A DNA stretch of 40,732 nt, taken from a virus. The notes under the pieces were generated by a model. That model saw only the letters and a program-made list of their open reading frames with translations, had not been told where the DNA came from and did not search any database. The DNA is taken from positions 1 to 40,732 of the IMG/VR virus record IMGVR_UViG_3300042866_000633. The stretch is one strand, 5' to 3'. Made by a program: the position numbers and the translations under genes. Shown here piece after piece: positions 18,841 to 35,933 of the stretch. Within the stretch, counting starts at the first letter, position 1; every line of letters starts with the position of its first letter.

Positions 18841-20256
18841 TTAAATCCCGCGTGTCAAGCGGTATTGCTTCACGGCATTTCGCAGCCCCGCCTGAGTCTG
18901 TGCCTTCTCGTCCAGCGCCATCGCTTGCGCCTGATCCAGCGTGTCCAGCACCATGATCCTGTGGCAGATCACAGGAGCCCCCTGACCCTGACGCCGGATG
19001 CGTGCGTTCATCTGATCGTACAGGTCCAGGCTCCAGTTGAGTCCGTACCAGACGATGATGTGCCCGCACTTCTGCAGACCGTCGATCCCGTGGCCCATGC
19101 TCGCCGGGTGGCCGATCATCAGGGCGCAGTCCCCCGAGGCCCACCGGGCCATGGCGTTGGTGAGCGCAGCCTCTGACTTGCACTCGGTCAGGTTCACGGG
19201 ACGAAGGTGCTTGAACTTCTCCATGATCCTCTCGGCGTCACTCCGGTAAGCGTAGGCGCACAGTACCTGCTGGCCCTGTGCCTCGTCGATGATCTCCTCC
19301 AGCGCCTCCAGCTTGAGGTCGTGGATCGGCTCCCACAGAGGCATCCCGGCCACGGGGTACATGGCGCCATTGGAGAACTGGAGGCACTTGTTGGTCAAGG
19401 ACGCCTGGTTGAACATCTCGACCTCTTTGCCGCTGTCAAGCTGGATGAACAACTCCTTCTCCATCCGGTTGTACAGGGTGCGCAGGGCCTCGGGTAACTC
19501 GATGCTCACATCGTTGACCATCATGTCGGGGAGCGGGTTGTAGTCGGCTGCAGACATCTCCAGCGTGATGTCCCCGATCAACTGCTTGATCTCGTTCTCA
19601 GCCCCCTCGTAGGGCACCTCGCGGTGTGGACCCTCCTTGCGATAGAACCGCTGCCGGAACGCCGTCTTGCTGGTCCCCAGGCGCAAACCCTTGTCCACCA
19701 CGAGGTACTGCCCGTGCAGATCCTTGTACCCGTTGGAGGCCGGGGTGCCAGTGAGTCCCGTGGTCCACTTGAAGTGGGGCAGGATCTTCTTGGTGGCCTT
19801 GACTCGCTGGGTGTTCGAGTTCTTGCACTTTGATATTTCGTCCCACACGAGCCCGTCGAACGGTGGGTCGCGGTGCTTGGAGATGAAGTAGGTGGCCAGC
19901 GTCTCCGCGAGCCACCCGAGGTTCTCGTAGTTCACCAAGTAGATATTCGCCGGCCGCAGGAGAGCCCGGGTCCGCTGGTCCTTGGTGCCCGTGAGCAGCG
20001 AGAACGTCAGGTGCTTGGTGTGCTGCCACTTGAGGGCCTCCTGACGCCACACCAGTCGAATCACGCGGATGGGGGCCACGATGACCACGCCTCGCAGGAA
20101 CCCGCAGGACAACAGGTGCGCGATGCTGGTGAGCGTGATAGCGGTCTTCCCCAAGCCCATGTCGAGCCAGAGCATCGTGGCTGGGTGGGTGCACTGGAAG
20201 TTGACCGCGCTCTGCTGGTAAGGGAACAGTTGCGCGGGGGTCAGCACGGTCGGCAC
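18841..20256 (-). CDS. SNF2-type superfamily 2 helicase, 471 aa
   Basis: ATP-dependent DNA translocase/helicase. Motif I MGLGKT at residues 33-38; motif II WDEIS near 137; motif III LTGTP near 167; motif V region GHGIDG and motif VI QMNARIRRQGQ near 414 with the arginine finger. The order and the early LFPYQQSAVNF Q-motif mark the SNF2-like helicases common in phage replication modules, often with VRR-NUC and DUF2800/DUF2815 genes as here. GTG start; a second GTG three codons in has a better spaced GGAG and could be the true one. Overlaps the methyltransferase stop. Confidence 0.92.
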   Translation of the reverse strand: MPTVLTPAQLFPYQQSAVNFQCTHPATMLWLDMGLGKTAITLTSIAHLLSCGFLRGVVIVAPIRVIRLVWRQEALKWQHTKHLTFSLLTGTKDQRTRALLRPANIYLVNYENLGWLAETLATYFISKHRDPPFDGLVWDEISKCKNSNTQRVKATKKILPHFKWTTGLTGTPASNGYKDLHGQYLVVDKGLRLGTSKTAFRQRFYRKEGPHREVPYEGAENEIKQLIGDITLEMSAADYNPLPDMMVNDVSIELPEALRTLYNRMEKELFIQLDSGKEVEMFNQASLTNKCLQFSNGAMYPVAGMPLWEPIHDLKLEALEEIIDEAQGQQVLCAYAYRSDAERIMEKFKHLRPVNLTECKSEAALTNAMARWASGDCALMIGHPASMGHGIDGLQKCGHIIVWYGLNWSLDLYDQMNARIRRQGQGAPVICHRIMVLDTLDQAQAMALDEKAQTQAGLRNAVKQYRLTRGI

Positions 20257-21317
20257 TCCATGTAGGCGCGGATCACTTGCTCCGCGACTTGCGGGACGAT
20301 GGCGTTACCGTAGGCGCGCAGTCGTCCCACTCGGTTGGATACCCCATGAGCCAGCGGGAATGTGCCGGGTTCAACTGGCCTCCACTTCCCGTCGCGGCAT
20401 GGGAGCCAGTCGCATCGGGACCAGTGATTGCTGCCACGTTCGGTAATTGTTTCTGACCCGAGTCTTTGCGTTCCGTGCTTGCCATCCAGTGATCGAGTGC
20501 CATCGGCGTAGGCCAATTCGACAACCACACCGTCCTCCCGAGCAGCGAGTTCAACTCCACGTTGTCGCACTGGCTCCCGTCCTTCCAGTCTCTTGTTGTT
20601 GTTGTTGGCCAGCCAACTAGGTTCGCCTCGTCCCTCAGTTTGTAGCGACCCGCTGTTCCATTGCGAATCTCCATGACCCCACCCTCCCCGTCCGATGCGC
20701 TGGTCGTTCGCCAGCCAATCAGGTGCGCCACTGACTCCACACACATCTGCTTCCCGCTCGCCAGTCGCCGGTCTGCCATCTCCGGTGTGCTGTATCGCCA
20801 CTTCTCGTCCGATGCGCTGGTCGTCGGCCACGAACCAGAGTCTTTGCCTGATGTGCGGAGCCCCGACGCCCGCAGCAGGGACACCGACTGCCCCGAAGGC
20901 GTAACCTTCACCTTCCAAGTCATCTTGAACAAGGTCGAGCCAGCCGTGGTTAATCGCTGCATCAACCTGTTCACCAAAGATGACTGGAGGTCGTTGGCTC
21001 CGTACAAGATGGAACCAATGCGGCCATAGGTGCCGCTCGTCAGCAGTCCCTGCTCCTTGGCCTGCGACGCTGAAAGGCTGGCAGGGGCAACTGCCGGTCC
21101 ACACGGGTCTGTCGTCAGACCACCCGGCGAGCCTGAGAGCCAGGCTCCAGCCACCGATGCCGGCGAAGAAGTGGCATTGGGTGTACCCAACCAAGTCGGA
21201 AGGTCGGACATCTGAGATTGATCGTTCATCTACTTCTCCGGGTGCAATGTGCCCTGCGGCAATTAGGTTACGCAACCACTGTGCCGCATACTTATCGATC
21301 TCGTTGTAGTAGTTCAT
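20241..21317 (-). CDS. C5-cytosine DNA methyltransferase, 358 aa
   Basis: Transfers a methyl group from S-adenosylmethionine to carbon 5 of cytosine. Motif I FAGIGG at 51-56; motif [11 protein letters not shown] with catalytic C79; motif VI-like FGEQV near 115; motif VIII-like [10 protein letters not shown]; motif [14 protein letters not shown] at the end. The region between VIII and X (target recognition) contains repeated [16 protein letters not shown] segments. No restriction endonuclease is nearby, so protection of phage DNA is the likely role. A second 318-codon frame on the same strand overlaps almost all of it. Coupled to the VRR-NUC gene by ATGA. Confidence 0.92.
20273..21229 (-). CDS. 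Overprinted WPTP-repeat protein inside the methyltransferase gene, 318 aa
   Basis: Same strand, different frame from the methyltransferase. The ATG has CGGAG six to seven bases upstream, a proper ribosome site. The product has a Ser/Gly-rich start, [40 protein letters not shown], four WPTT/RTTSASD-type repeats and a C-terminal [12 protein letters not shown] ... SSRKSRSK. From memory, proteins of just this architecture are annotated in very many phages and prophages. Function unknown. It could in principle be a database-propagated shadow of the methyltransferase, so I keep confidence moderate. The stop lies 32 bases before the methyltransferase stop. Confidence 0.5.
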
Positions 21318-21604
21318 CGCAGCGCCATGAAGTCAATAGTCGTGCGCCCGTTCTCCACCGAGTCCACGACAAACACCGCGACTCCCTGGACCCGCAGGCG
21401 CTCGTGTTCACGGTCCTGTGCCGGTGTGACCTTGACACCCTCACGCTTGAACTCGATGAAGAAGACCACACCCTTGGGCGTGATGAGCAGGCGATCAGGC
21501 ACTGCGGCCCTTTCCGGCGAAGTGAACTTGTAGACCAGAAACCCATTGGACTTTGCATAGTCGCAGACACTGCGCTCAATCTGTTTCTCAAGAAGGTTTG
21601 CCAT
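21314..21604 (-). CDS. VRR-NUC domain nuclease, 96 aa
   Basis: Minimal stand-alone VRR-NUC (PD-(D/E)XK superfamily). Visible are PERAAVPDRLLITP with the catalytic D, FFIEFKREG supplying E and K, and QDREHERLRVQGVAVFVV with the Q and following helix. Family members cut branched or single-strand DNA ends and in phages lie near SNF2 helicases, as here. GGAG seven bases before ATG. Overlaps the neighbours on both sides. Confidence 0.92.
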   Translation of the reverse strand: MANLLEKQIERSVCDYAKSNGFLVYKFTSPERAAVPDRLLITPKGVVFFIEFKREGVKVTPAQDREHERLRVQGVAVFVVDSVENGRTTIDFMALR

Positions 21605-21806: not shown

Positions 21807-21948
21807 CCTTTGGTGTTGTGGCAACAAGGTGCCTGAGATGCTGGATCAGTTCGTGCTGATCCTGTAGTTTCAAATACGCCTCGGTGGCAAAGCGCACGAG
21901 GTTCTCGTGGGTCCAGGTGGCGAAGGTAGGGAGGTCGGGCTCATTCAT
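21784..21948 (-). CDS. Small hypothetical protein, 54 aa
   Basis: ATG overlaps the polymerase stop (ATGA). Encodes MNEPDLPTFATWTHENLVRF, then a helix with YLKLQDQHELIQHLRHLV. Short, soluble and mainly helical. It ends inside the duplicated segment that holds the start of the next gene. No function recognised, but the coupling and codon pattern support it. Confidence 0.65.
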   Translation of the reverse strand: MNEPDLPTFATWTHENLVRFATEAYLKLQDQHELIQHLRHLVATTPKEKNDDIR

Positions 21949-23780
21949 GACATCCCCAGTACAAGTTTCTCAACCTCGCGCACGTAGTAGTCGAAGTCCA
22001 CCGGCAACCGACCCGCTTCTCGAATGTCGTTGCACACTTGAACCCCCCAACCAGACTCCACGCCTATGCGGCGCCATTCCTCCTTGCCCTTCAATGGCGG
22101 CATCCACTTGAACAGGTGCCCACCACCCTTGGCGATGTAGTACCTCGTGATGTTCTGGATCCGCTCGTCTCCGCATGTCAGGAACGAAGACCGAGGCACC
22201 TTCGTCCGAAGCATGAAGTCCATCATCTCAGGCCACTGCTCCACGGTCTCGCGGATCGGTGCGCCTTCGAGCAGCACCTTCTCGGCCACCTTGGGCACCA
22301 CGAGTGCGCTGTGGTTCTGGTGCCACTCAAGGTCGTGCTCGTAGGCACCCTTCCTTTTCACCTTGCCATCGAGGTACTGGCCGATGTAGTTGTTGACATC
22401 GCGGATGCACATGCGCCGGTAGGTCATCTGCTCCAAGGTCAACTTGGTCTGCTCTTGCCACCAGTCGCATACTCGCTTAAGCACGGCACTCGACCCATGG
22501 GGAATCCGCACGGTCATGCCGTCCGTGTTGCACTGGATCAACTGCACCCCTGGCACATGCTGCATGACCATCTCGGCCAGCAGGCACAGCAGCAGTTGCC
22601 CGTTGAGCGTGATCGACATGGTGAACAGCGGGTCATAGAACACCGAGAACACGTTGTTGCTGTCCCCGTAGACCCCGTTGAGCGCGAGCTTGAGCATCGC
22701 GTTCTCGGGGGAGCCCTTGGGGTGCTTCTTGCGCTCCTCGAACAGGTGCTGGTAGATGTCCACGAACGAGCCGCCGAGGTGCGCGGGTCGAAACCCATTG
22801 GCAATGGCCAAGGTGGGGTAGTACGAAGTGACATCGAGGTCCACGATCACGAACCCCTCGTTGGACTCGATGATCTCGGACTCCACAGACCCATGGATGC
22901 CCCCGAGTCCGAAGACAAAGGTGAACCCGCGCACCGTGGCGGTCACATCGGTGAACACCCCCTTGGTCTCGGTGATCGTCTGGCTCTTCAGCCACTCCAG
23001 CATCCGCTGGAACTCAGGCTCTTGGAACGTGATCCACGGCAGGATGGCGTCACGCAGCGCGATGCTCGGGCGCTTGGTCTGCCGGGGCTGGCGTCCCTGT
23101 GGGCCGTAGTCATAACACGCGACCCCCGCTGCCTCCAGTTCCATCACGAAGTAGTCCTTGCCGATCTTCGTGTCGTTGTGGTTCATGAAGTCCCGCTGAT
23201 ACCGGTACGTCAGGTCAGCACGGAACCGGATCATGTCGAGTGACTTGAAGTAGAACTTCTTGGTCTCGAGGACATCGTGCCGGTTGTACTGCTTGAGCAC
23301 GGGCACCTGCTCCAGCGTGAGGCTCGTGCCCACCGGGAACGGGAGGTCACTGATGTTGTCGGACCTCATGTTGAACTCCAGCACCTTAAGCCCCGTGGAG
23401 CGGGCCCGGTTGTCGAAGTGGTGAATGAGGAACAGGTCAAGTTGGTCCACTAGGCGGTCGGTGGGCTTGACCTGGTGCATCCAGCGGTTGTCGTCGTCCT
23501 GCGCCGTGATGATCGCCATGGCCTTGTCGTATAGGGTCCGCGCATCAGCGTGCCCCATGCGGCACAGGGTGTGCAGGATCGGGTAGTCGAAGCCGAGGCT
23601 GTTGAACCCCACCAGTCGGGCGTCGATACTCTTGAGCCAATGCACCCACTCGATGATGGCTCGGGAGTCGTTGCGCCAGTCGCTGATCTCGAAAGACCAC
23701 TCGATAGGCAGGTGCGCGTGTTGGGCGTTGATCGTGAAGACGTTGGGGTACGTCTCCAGATCAAACACTATGTCGTTCAC
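21945..23780 (-). CDS. DNA polymerase, family B-like with 3'-5' exonuclease, 611 aa
   Basis: GTG start overlapping the stop of the ssDNA-binding gene; the frame extends further up but only inside that gene. Exo I FDLETYP (D7, E9), Exo II GFNSLGFDYP (N60, D65), Exo III YNRHDVLETK. Polymerase motif A DLDVTSYYPTLAIA near 314, motif B LKLALNGVYGDSN, motif C CNTDGMTV near 417, where the first Asp of the usual DTD is Asn but the metal-binding second Asp remains. Short for family B. With a separate primase it need not be protein-primed. Likely replicates the phage genome. Confidence 0.88.
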   Translation of the reverse strand: MNDIVFDLETYPNVFTINAQHAHLPIEWSFEISDWRNDSRAIIEWVHWLKSIDARLVGFNSLGFDYPILHTLCRMGHADARTLYDKAMAIITAQDDDNRWMHQVKPTDRLVDQLDLFLIHHFDNRARSTGLKVLEFNMRSDNISDLPFPVGTSLTLEQVPVLKQYNRHDVLETKKFYFKSLDMIRFRADLTYRYQRDFMNHNDTKIGKDYFVMELEAAGVACYDYGPQGRQPRQTKRPSIALRDAILPWITFQEPEFQRMLEWLKSQTITETKGVFTDVTATVRGFTFVFGLGGIHGSVESEIIESNEGFVIVDLDVTSYYPTLAIANGFRPAHLGGSFVDIYQHLFEERKKHPKGSPENAMLKLALNGVYGDSNNVFSVFYDPLFTMSITLNGQLLLCLLAEMVMQHVPGVQLIQCNTDGMTVRIPHGSSAVLKRVCDWWQEQTKLTLEQMTYRRMCIRDVNNYIGQYLDGKVKRKGAYEHDLEWHQNHSALVVPKVAEKVLLEGAPIRETVEQWPEMMDFMLRTKVPRSSFLTCGDERIQNITRYYIAKGGGHLFKWMPPLKGKEEWRRIGVESGWGVQVCNDIREAGRLPVDFDYYVREVEKLVLGMS

Positions 23781-24490
23781 CGCCCACCGAGGAACGAGGG
23801 CAGAGCAGGCGGCGCACCAAAGGGTGCAGCCGGCATCTGTGGTGCCGGGGCAAAGCCGCCCATGAACGCAGGCATCGCGGCCCCTGACGCACTTGGCCCC
23901 GTAGGTGCAGCGACGGCACCAAACAGGCCGGAAACGTCCGCAGGGCCTTCGCCGAAGGGGGTGTCGTCCCGCAGGAACTGCACAGCCACCAAGTCGCAGC
24001 GGATGCCGTTGCCGTGCTTGTTCTTCTGCACCCAGGGCTTGATCGCAGCGTTGACCCTGCATCCCCCGTACATCTTGCGGGCAATGGCCATGCACGCCAT
24101 CGTGTTCGCGGGGTCGGCCGGTTGCCCGTTGTCCTGGATCATCTGGGGCTGGCGATCAGATCCAGCGGTGATGAACACCATGCCCGGGTAGCCATCGTAG
24201 GGGGCGAAGGTCTTCTTGTTGATCTTCTCGGACCCCATGCCGAAGCCGCGCAGCTTGCGGTCGTTCTGGATCATCTGCATCACGGTGCCCGCGTGCTCGG
24301 CAAACGTGGCAACCATGATCTTGCTGTAGTGCTCGTAGAACTGCACGAACCCCTTGTGATCCTGCGGCATGATGAACTCGCAGTTGTACGAGATCCGCTC
24401 CTTGCCGGTCTGCTCGTTGATCTGCTTCTGGGGCTCGGCGAGGTGGGGAAACGAGAGGCGAACGTCGCTCAGGAAAATGACATCTGACAT
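23777..24490 (-). CDS. ssDNA-binding protein, DUF2815, 237 aa
   Basis: MSDVIFLSDVRLSFPHLAEP is the standard start of DUF2815 (Enc34-like OB-fold ssDNA-binding proteins); further RISYNCEFIMPQDHKGFV and GSEKINKKTFAPYDGYPGMV. The C-terminal ~50 residues are Pro/Ala/Gly/Met-rich and disordered, as in many SSBs. I start at the ATG with GGAG eight bases upstream; a 30-residue upstream extension is basic and unlike the family. Lies between DUF2800 nuclease and polymerase, the usual phage order. Confidence 0.9.
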   Translation of the reverse strand: MSDVIFLSDVRLSFPHLAEPQKQINEQTGKERISYNCEFIMPQDHKGFVQFYEHYSKIMVATFAEHAGTVMQMIQNDRKLRGFGMGSEKINKKTFAPYDGYPGMVFITAGSDRQPQMIQDNGQPADPANTMACMAIARKMYGGCRVNAAIKPWVQKNKHGNGIRCDLVAVQFLRDDTPFGEGPADVSGLFGAVAAPTGPSASGAAMPAFMGGFAPAPQMPAAPFGAPPALPSFLGGR

Positions 24491-33844: not shown

Positions 33845-34390
33845 ATGACCCAGGCAAGCCCCCAGCCCCAACTCGAAGACCAGACGCTTCCTGACTGGCT
33901 GGCCGCGCCTCTGCCCTACTACCACCCTGCCGTTCTCGTGCTGCGAAAGCAGGCAATGCTGGCGCAGAAGCAGATGGACCACATCACCTTCGAGTCGCTG
34001 TTCGATGAGTTTCTCGACAAGGTGCGGGAGAACAGCCTCGGGGTGACTCAGTTGTTTGAGAACGATCCGAGATCCCCGAACCTCAAGCGGTTCATCGCAT
34101 GGGTCATGCGCGACGAGAACCGCAAGGCGCAGTACTACGAGGCGCAAGCCATCGGTGCCGAGGTCATGTTCATCGAGCAGTCCGCCATCGTTGACGCCAA
34201 GGACAGCATGGAGGATGTCAACCGGTCCACATTGAGAGCCAATGATCGCAAGTGGAAGATGGGTGTGATGAATCGCAAACGCTTTGGTGATGTGAGGCAG
34301 ATTGACCAGAACGTCACCATCGACCTCTCAGGGGCCATGCAGCAGGCGCAGGAGAGGCTGGATCGGGCGAGGACCATCGATGCCGCCTAA
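33845..34390 (+). CDS. Terminase small subunit, 181 aa
   Basis: Directly upstream of and overlapping the large subunit. N-terminal Pro/Gln-rich stretch, then helices: FESLFDEFLDKVRENSLGVT, FIAWVMRDENRKAQYYEAQA, DRKWKMGVMNRKRFGDVRQI. The last pattern is common in terminase small subunits and related DNA-binding packaging proteins of Proteobacteria phages. It would recognise the packaging site. No Shine-Dalgarno is visible before the ATG. An upstream -10-like GATACC would give a very short or absent leader. Confidence 0.85.
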   Translation: MTQASPQPQLEDQTLPDWLAAPLPYYHPAVLVLRKQAMLAQKQMDHITFESLFDEFLDKVRENSLGVTQLFENDPRSPNLKRFIAWVMRDENRKAQYYEAQAIGAEVMFIEQSAIVDAKDSMEDVNRSTLRANDRKWKMGVMNRKRFGDVRQIDQNVTIDLSGAMQQAQERLDRARTIDAA

Positions 34391-35933
34391 AGTCCAGATG
34401 GTCAGTACCCCGGACAAGGAGCAGGCCCTCATCACCGAGTTGCTCCAGTTCAAGTACGACCCGGAGGCCTTCGCACGGTACGCGTTCCCCTGGGGCGTGA
34501 AGGGCACACCGCTTGAGAAAATCCAAGGGCCACGGTCATGGCAGATCGGTGAGTTCCGCAGGATCGCAGACCACTTGGCCCTGGACCGCGAGAAGGCGAG
34601 GATCGGCCTACCCGGCTCGCCCCTGTACATCGCCCTGTCCTCGGGCCGGGGGATCGGCAAAAGCGCACTGCTCTCGATGCTCGACCTCTGGGTGCAGTCG
34701 TGCTGGATCGGGAGCACCACCATCGTCACAGCCAACACCGAGACGCAGTTGCGCAGCCGCACCATGGCCGAGTTGGGCAAGTGGCACACCATGGCCATCA
34801 ACAGGCACTGGTTCGAGAAGTCCTCCATGTCCATGCGCCCGGCCGGCTGGTTCGCCGAACTGGTTGAGACCCAACTCAAGATGGACACGCAGTACTACTA
34901 CGTCGAGGCGCAGTCGTGGTCAGCCGAGAACCCCGATGCGTTTGCCGGTGCCCACAGCCAGATCGGCATGATGGTGCAGTTCGACGAGGCCAGCGGCATC
35001 CCCGACCCCATCTGGCAGGTTACCGAGGGGTTCTTCACGGACATGGCACCGTTGAGGCTGTGGCTGGCGATTAGCAACCCACGGCGCAACACCGGGCGCT
35101 TCTTCGAGTGTTTCCACAAGGACCGGGGGTTCTGGGACACGAAGTACGTGGACAGCCGCACCGTCGAGGGTGTGGACGCCGGGGTGTATCAGCGCATCGC
35201 AGACAAGTACGGAGAAGACCACGATGTCACCAGGATCGAAGTCAAGGGGCAGTTCCCCCGAACCGGCTCCAACCAGTTCATCGGACGAGAAGTCGCCCAG
35301 GCCGCAGCCGAGCGAGAACTCGTCCCAGACACCGGAGCCCCACTACTCATGGGGATTGATGTGGCTCGATTCGGAGACGACGAGTCCGTGTTTCGCTTTC
35401 GACGCGGCCGTGACGCCCGCTCCATCCCGCCCATGCGCTACCGGGGTGCCGACACCATGGCCCTGTCCACCCACGCCGCCACGGCCATCGAGCGGCTCCA
35501 ACCAGACGCCGTGTTCGTTGATGGAGGAGGGGTGGGGGGAGGAGTAGTTGACCGGCTCAAGATGCTCGGCTACCGGGTCATCGAGGTGCAGTCGGGCGAG
35601 GCAGCGCACGACCCCGAGAAGTACCTCAACCGCAGAGCCGAGATGTGGGGCGAGATGCGCGACTGGCTGATCTACGGGGCCATCGACAACGACGACTCGC
35701 TCATCGACGACCTGACCGGCCCCGAGTACGCCATCCACCTCAAAGGGCAGATCAAACTGGAGAGCAAAGACTCCATGAAGAAGCGCGGGCTGGCCAGCCC
35801 CGACGATGGCGACTCCCTGGCACTCACCTTCGCGGAACCCGTGGCGCGGCTGGACGCATCCACCGCTCGTCGGACAAACCGGATGCGGGGGCTGGTCGCG
35901 GACAACGAGTATGATATATTCGCGGCAACTTGA
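34380..35933 (+). CDS. Terminase large subunit, 517 aa
   Basis: Packaging ATPase and nuclease. Walker A SSGRGIGKSALL near 87-98; Walker B MMVQFDEASGIPD near 200; an SNPRRNTGRFFECF coupling segment near 222-236; nuclease domain with MGIDVARFGDDES near 324, VFVDGGGVGGGVVDRL and the C-terminal SPDDGDSLALTFAEP acid. I start at the ATG overlapping the small subunit stop; a longer frame from 34302 is read only inside that gene. Followed by rightward virion genes. Confidence 0.93.
   Translation: MPPKVQMVSTPDKEQALITELLQFKYDPEAFARYAFPWGVKGTPLEKIQGPRSWQIGEFRRIADHLALDREKARIGLPGSPLYIALSSGRGIGKSALLSMLDLWVQSCWIGSTTIVTANTETQLRSRTMAELGKWHTMAINRHWFEKSSMSMRPAGWFAELVETQLKMDTQYYYVEAQSWSAENPDAFAGAHSQIGMMVQFDEASGIPDPIWQVTEGFFTDMAPLRLWLAISNPRRNTGRFFECFHKDRGFWDTKYVDSRTVEGVDAGVYQRIADKYGEDHDVTRIEVKGQFPRTGSNQFIGREVAQAAAERELVPDTGAPLLMGIDVARFGDDESVFRFRRGRDARSIPPMRYRGADTMALSTHAATAIERLQPDAVFVDGGGVGGGVVDRLKMLGYRVIEVQSGEAAHDPEKYLNRRAEMWGEMRDWLIYGAIDNDDSLIDDLTGPEYAIHLKGQIKLESKDSMKKRGLASPDDGDSLALTFAEPVARLDASTARRTNRMRGLVADNEYDIFAAT

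Follow-up and report, generated by a model that had tools for sequence, protein, structure and literature searches.

A gene nested in the +1 frame of a phage cytosine-5 methyltransferase gene and the two-chain enzyme that the pair probably encodes

Within the window analysed here, the 40,732 nucleotides of viral record IMGVR_UViG_3300042866_000633, a single stretch of DNA very probably encodes both chains of a heteromeric DNA cytosine-5 methyltransferase (C5-MTase), as judged from sequence comparison and structure prediction. The large chain, here called alpha (358 aa; 20241..21317, minus strand), is recognized as a C5-methyltransferase through PF00145, phrog_363, and the likeness of its AlphaFold2 model to M.HhaI. 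The gene for the small chain, beta (318 aa; 20273..21229, minus strand), lies out of frame and wholly inside the alpha gene, in the +1 frame relative to alpha, and is recognized through phrog_1008, phrog_31772, and tests of stop depletion, start signals, and substitution. That beta is a real gene is close to certain, and it would in all likelihood serve as the second subunit of the enzyme, carrying motif IX.

Layout of the locus

The pair belongs to a minus-strand replication cluster of the window that comprises a DNA polymerase (21945-24095), a VRR-NUC-like nuclease, the methyltransferase, and a SNF2-type helicase. The nuclease (21314..21604, minus strand; phrog_93, E 7.8e-26) is directly upstream of alpha, and the helicase (18841..20256, minus strand; phrog_62, E 1.4e-126; PF00176) is directly downstream, with its start overlapping the end of alpha. 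The alpha ATG overlaps the nuclease stop codon (ATGA), and no clear ribosome site precedes it; together these suggest that alpha is translationally coupled to the upstream nuclease. The order of methyltransferase and SNF2-type helicase is shared with the phages K1ind2 and K1H, and a VRR-NUC-like nuclease also neighbours the pair in E. coli prophages.

The beta ATG at 21229 lies about 30 codons inside alpha and opens a frame of 318 codons. It is preceded by CGGAG, which resembles a ribosome site (21236..21240, minus strand), with 6 nt between CGGAG and the ATG. The initial annotation of this DNA had placed the frame, its start, and the CGGAG correctly, and the four WPTTSASD-type repeats and the C-terminal end that it described are both present in beta. 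It had also held that repeats in the DNA underlie the repeats of both frames; this is borne out for two copies (30 nt, 87% alike), the only ones in which repetition is clear at the DNA level. Its caution that frame length alone proves little is sound, since chance runs of 267 and 272 codons lie in the same-strand shadow of other genes in the window.

Stop codons, start signals, and selection in the second frame

Stop codons were counted in 99 non-redundant intact alpha genes, 94 of them from viral contigs, and compared with the numbers predicted by shuffling synonymous codons within each gene. The frequent stops in relatives that the initial annotation had named as evidence against the gene are rare instead: 6 stops were found in the +1 frame against 293 predicted, and the frame is open in 95 of the 99 homologues. 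The +2 frame of the same genes contained 1113 stops against 1050 predicted. Before the beta start, +1 stops numbered 241 (160 expected), from the beta start to motif VIII 12 (216 expected), and from motif VIII to motif X 6 (172 expected); thus, the depletion starts where beta starts. Start signals follow the same frame, with an SD and an ATG in +1 at alpha codons 20-50 in 66 of the 99 homologues against 15.8 expected, a fourfold enrichment, and in +2 in 8 against 8.8 expected. A second alpha clade found in marine viruses, with the ordinary motif order, is nested too (0 stops against 18 expected). Eleven single-chain relatives served as a control and had 98 +1 stops against 114 expected. With no comparable depletion there, C5-MTase composition is rejected as the source of the stop shortage.

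Conceivably, most beta arises not from its own start but through programmed frameshifting in the vicinity of motif VIII, joined to the N-terminal part of alpha. A shift after motif VIII would join motifs I-VIII, the recognition region, and motif IX in one chain, and single-chain relatives exist. However, stop depletion begins at the beta ATG, 130 codons before motif VIII, start signals are enriched at that ATG, and the fusion would be without motif X, so this route is extremely improbable. Initiation of beta at its own ATG is the preferred reading.

Selection was estimated with a simplified OLGenie-type count over 313 pairs of sequences. Because these are not independent of one another and multiple hits were left out, the intervals are too narrow, although the contrast is large nonetheless. 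In the beta frame dNN/dNS was 0.12 overall, 0.24 over motifs I-VIII, and 0.07 over motifs VIII-X, whereas the +2 frame, treated as a mock gene, gave 3.1, 2.9, and 3.2, respectively. Among changes that alter alpha, those that also alter beta are disfavoured. Beta is under purifying selection; the lack of constraint that, according to the initial annotation, would have counted against the gene is not what was found. As far as motif VIII the constraint is on alpha; from there to about codon 280 it is on beta, and near motif X it is on both. Over alpha residues 186-295, alpha-changing substitutions accumulate 2-30 times faster than beta-changing ones, and in the first 50 or so residues of beta stops are avoided and amino acid constraint is slight. 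Since beta is more conserved than alpha between motifs VIII and X, it is the methyltransferase frame that looks like the overprint in that stretch.

Both frames also occur together. The sample consisted of 155 viral-contig loci obtained with a beta or an alpha query, some contigs having been fetched by both, and five phage records; both frames were matched in 160 of these 160 loci, with the same +1 offset in every undamaged pair. In bacterial genomes, all 80 loci fetched with beta contained alpha at the same offset, 78 of them fully nested. One of the two frames is broken at loci L049, L133-L139, and L150, probably by decay or sequencing error. Among these, L133, L134, L136, L137, and L139 are related contigs in which alpha is broken near its variable region, with later motifs in other frames, through an indel or a sequencing error.

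That beta might be a chance shadow frame of a G+C-rich gene would accord with the long shadow frames elsewhere in the window and with the usual omission of the frame by phage annotators. This explanation is ruled out by the family-wide stop depletion and the substitution test, and the start signals, the co-occurrence of the frames, the nesting in the marine clade, and the single-chain control also speak against it; the probability left to it is close to nil. The claim of the initial annotation that a real, separately started gene is overprinted on the methyltransferase is upheld by stop depletion, start-signal enrichment, and the substitution test. Both frames are coding and under selection.

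Elsewhere in the window, the gene for the large terminase (34302-35933, plus strand) has 8 stops in its +1 frame against 15.2 predicted, with none of 300 shuffles as low. Neither of its +1 open reading frames (34513-34971 and 35170-35547) matches a PHROG, and the shortage may be chance among 26 tests.

Division of motifs between the two chains

Alpha matches PF00145 (E 4.6e-15) and phrog_363 (E 1.3e-84), and its AlphaFold2 model aligns with M.HhaI at Z 16.3 over 173 residues. Structure models were based on alignments built from the window and viral contigs only; that of alpha is confident over the catalytic domain and the motif X helix. Membership of PF00145 is reflected in the presence of the catalytic-domain fold and of motifs I, IV (PCQ), VI, and VIII, all on the minus strand. 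Motif I (FAGIGG; 21150..21167) aligns to motif I of M.HhaI; motif IV (PCQPFS, with catalytic Cys79; 21069..21086) and motif VI (GEQV, usually ENV; 20964..20975) are invariant in 68 homologues; and motif VIII (PHIRQRLW; 20835..20858) is identified from homologue conservation and alignment. Motif X follows at 20283..20327; its alignment with motif X of the single-chain enzymes keeps the expected order, although this match is weak alone. Motif IX and a recognition domain are absent from alpha. The position of the recognition domain of a single-chain enzyme is occupied by a linker (residues 186-295; 20433..20762, minus strand) that is predicted to be disordered (pLDDT below 50), no position of alpha between 165 and 298 is near-invariant, and motif IX is found in the +1 frame.

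The alpha N-terminus (...VDERSISDV; residues 2-37, 21207..21314, minus strand) precedes motif I and resembles motifs II-III of M.HhaI (YSNEWDKYAQE...VNEKTIPD), with a weak sequence match. In the structural alignment, residue 1 of the alpha model starts on residue 35 of M.HhaI. With a II-III-like stretch ahead of motif I, the order in alpha would be II-III-I-IV. The natural C5-MTase permutations that PMC5944983 describes are all of the X-before-I kind.

Beta matches phrog_1008 (E 6.4e-27) and phrog_31772 (E 5.2e-24), families that PHROGs labels 'DNA methyltransferase' and that are both matched by 72 of the 72 aligned beta chains. Comparisons with Pfam, NCBIfam, and PDB sequences gave no match. 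The model of beta alone is poor (pLDDT 57, pTM 0.26); its best-predicted part is residues 77-119 (20873..21001, minus strand; pLDDT 72-88), a conserved helix and hairpin that lies in the shadow of alpha motifs V-VIII and shows reduced beta-changing substitution. The region of WPTTSASD-type repeats (20381..20833, minus strand) matches, at the profile level, the VIII-IX region of single-chain phage C5-MTases and is a probable target-recognition region. Motif IX follows at 20318..20377 (minus strand), where beta matches RLAPAFSEWMMGWPAGW of the single-chain enzymes; its L, N, P, W, L, M, G, P, and W are near-invariant among 68 sequences, and its comparison with M.HhaI alone is not significant.

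The two chains correspond piece by piece, and in the right order, to single-chain enzymes. The single-chain form of actinophages consists of motifs I-VIII, LLPTP.A.DG repeats, RLAPAFSEWMMGWPAGW as motif IX, and RIIGNGV as motif X. From its repeats to motif IX, beta aligns with single-chain phage C5-MTases at an hhalign probability of 96.9 (E 1.5e-10), and alpha aligns with the same set over motifs IV-VIII (E 7.8e-23), then over motif X in order. Beta thus maps on the middle of the single-chain enzyme and alpha on what comes before and after, so that the nested pair holds the pieces of one enzyme. To the initial annotation a function can be added, in that beta is most likely the motif IX and target-recognition subunit of this enzyme.

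Two other roles for a genuine beta chain have been weighed. Beta could be a protein with another job, such as a regulator or an anti-restriction protein, that merely overlaps the methyltransferase, and no structure or Pfam match identifies it. Against this, motif IX is missing from alpha and present in beta at the matching DNA position, and the same pieces also occur fused or as two genes. The search suggested by the initial annotation, for the second protein where the methyltransferase frame is lacking, returned only one case, a beta at a contig edge (L073). Stand-alone beta genes, which we presumed certain actinophage proteins to be, were not found, the beta-like frames of actinophages being fused or partly overlapping. 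An unconnected function is thus very unlikely. It is unlikely, though less so, that beta brings motif IX only, with the recognition domain in the variable region of alpha and the beta repeats acting as a spacer. This arrangement has a precedent in M.EcoHK31I, whose predicted recognition domain was assigned to the large chain (PMC3404938). However, the variable region of alpha is predicted to be disordered, evolves fast, and is free of near-invariant residues, whereas constraint in that stretch lies on beta, whose repeats share homology with the single-chain VIII-IX region. Placement of the recognition region in beta is therefore favoured, as a likely assignment.

In single-chain enzymes the order is catalytic domain, recognition domain, motif IX, and motif X, and in the proposed enzyme the middle piece would be read from the +1 frame. 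Alpha would fold into an AdoMet-binding catalytic domain (motifs I-VIII) with the catalytic cysteine. Beta, starting at its own ribosome site, would supply the repeat-containing recognition region and motif IX and close the DNA-binding cleft, with the disordered alpha linker spanning beta and motif X returning to the catalytic domain. The chains would associate physically, and activity would depend on both. Together they would methylate a specific sequence, recognized by beta, and the phage DNA would probably be protected from host restriction.

Related enzymes, annotation, and implications

M.EcoHK31I has its small-chain gene nested, in another frame, in the gene for the large chain. Its larger subunit contains motifs I-VIII and X and its smaller subunit motif IX (PMC3404938). 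Compared by motif content as described, M.EcoHK31I (and M.EaeI) share the split of alpha and beta. However, M.EcoHK31I belongs to a restriction-modification system and the pair described here to a phage replication cluster, and recognition, attributed to the large chain in M.EcoHK31I, appears to be in beta here; this division of labour is possibly new relative to M.EcoHK31I. M.AquI is another two-chain enzyme, divided past motif VIII in its variable region, but its small chain contains both IX and X (PMC3404938), whereas motif X is in alpha here. An AquI-like layout is seen in actinophages, namely Gordonia phage GordDuk1 and the L270 group, in which a second chain in the +1 frame includes repeats and motifs IX and X. 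Mycobacterium phage ShiLan gp70 is a single-chain enzyme with the same pieces in the same order as alpha and beta, including EWMMGWP..W (IX) and GNG[VI] (X), but enzymes of its type are one protein in one frame and lack +1 stop depletion.

Single-chain, two-gene, and nested layouts thus all occur among relatives, the nested one also in Paenibacillus phages. In the motif survey of loci, the 111 unclassified loci reflect strict patterns and not absence. In a tree of 94 columns, too short to settle the direction of change, the nested form branches at two separate points, with single and split forms intermixed. The +1 frame of one single-chain actinophage enzyme (L250, 2841-3251) retains, up to a stop codon, a stretch like the beta N-terminus, SETLPTSGMTRSGRLLPL...LPTP, which may be left over from an earlier nested or split arrangement. 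Short nested pairs with few repeats are found in two large virulent E. coli phages, Vequintavirus Alma (L161, 2495-3349) and Krischvirus Aragogtheria (L162, 2501-3340). In Komagataeibacter phage phiKX1 (L002, 2882-4529), inserted DNA that carries an HNH-like stretch, in a different frame, splits motif IX from motif X, and neither full chain is annotated.

Annotation of the pair is uneven. The same two chains are annotated as 'C-specific methylase' and 'Mte8-like protein' in the Kagunaviruses K1ind2 and K1H, and both as 'DNA methyltransferase' in Paenibacillus phage Leyra; these records give no mechanism. Only 7 of the best 60 phage records have two features under the match; an E. coli prophage record annotates alpha only, and Salmonella phage W5_chr3 the beta frame only. 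A literature search found no description of overprinting in phage methyltransferases, which is weak evidence of novelty given that most subscription papers fell outside its scope. What is added beyond M.EcoHK31I is the spread of the arrangement in phages and prophages, with one frame mostly unannotated, and the evidence for a recognition region in beta. At 250-400 codons, the overlap in this family is, to our knowledge, one of the larger same-strand ones that are conserved.

Beta occurs almost throughout the family of alpha; it is a hidden gene in hundreds of phage and prophage genomes, usually unannotated. The chances are about even that C5-methyltransferases of this family form a class, spread across phages, that fully separates catalysis (alpha) from recognition (beta) yet encodes both in the same DNA in two frames, with recognition wholly in the hidden frame and motifs II-III before motif I in alpha. 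If they are fully separated, any change of specificity would have to be accommodated by the alpha linker, which shares those nucleotides. Since single-chain, two-gene, and nested forms exist side by side, the origin of an overlapping gene pair may be traced step by step, and the ancestral frame can be argued from the data, as beta in the probable recognition region and alpha elsewhere. In phages, plasmids, and prophages, members of the family are annotated as a single 'DNA cytosine methyltransferase'; most gene callers pass over the second gene, in whose absence the enzyme is probably incomplete. The long frame, cloned or annotated alone, could yield an inactive enzyme or a wrong assignment of specificity.
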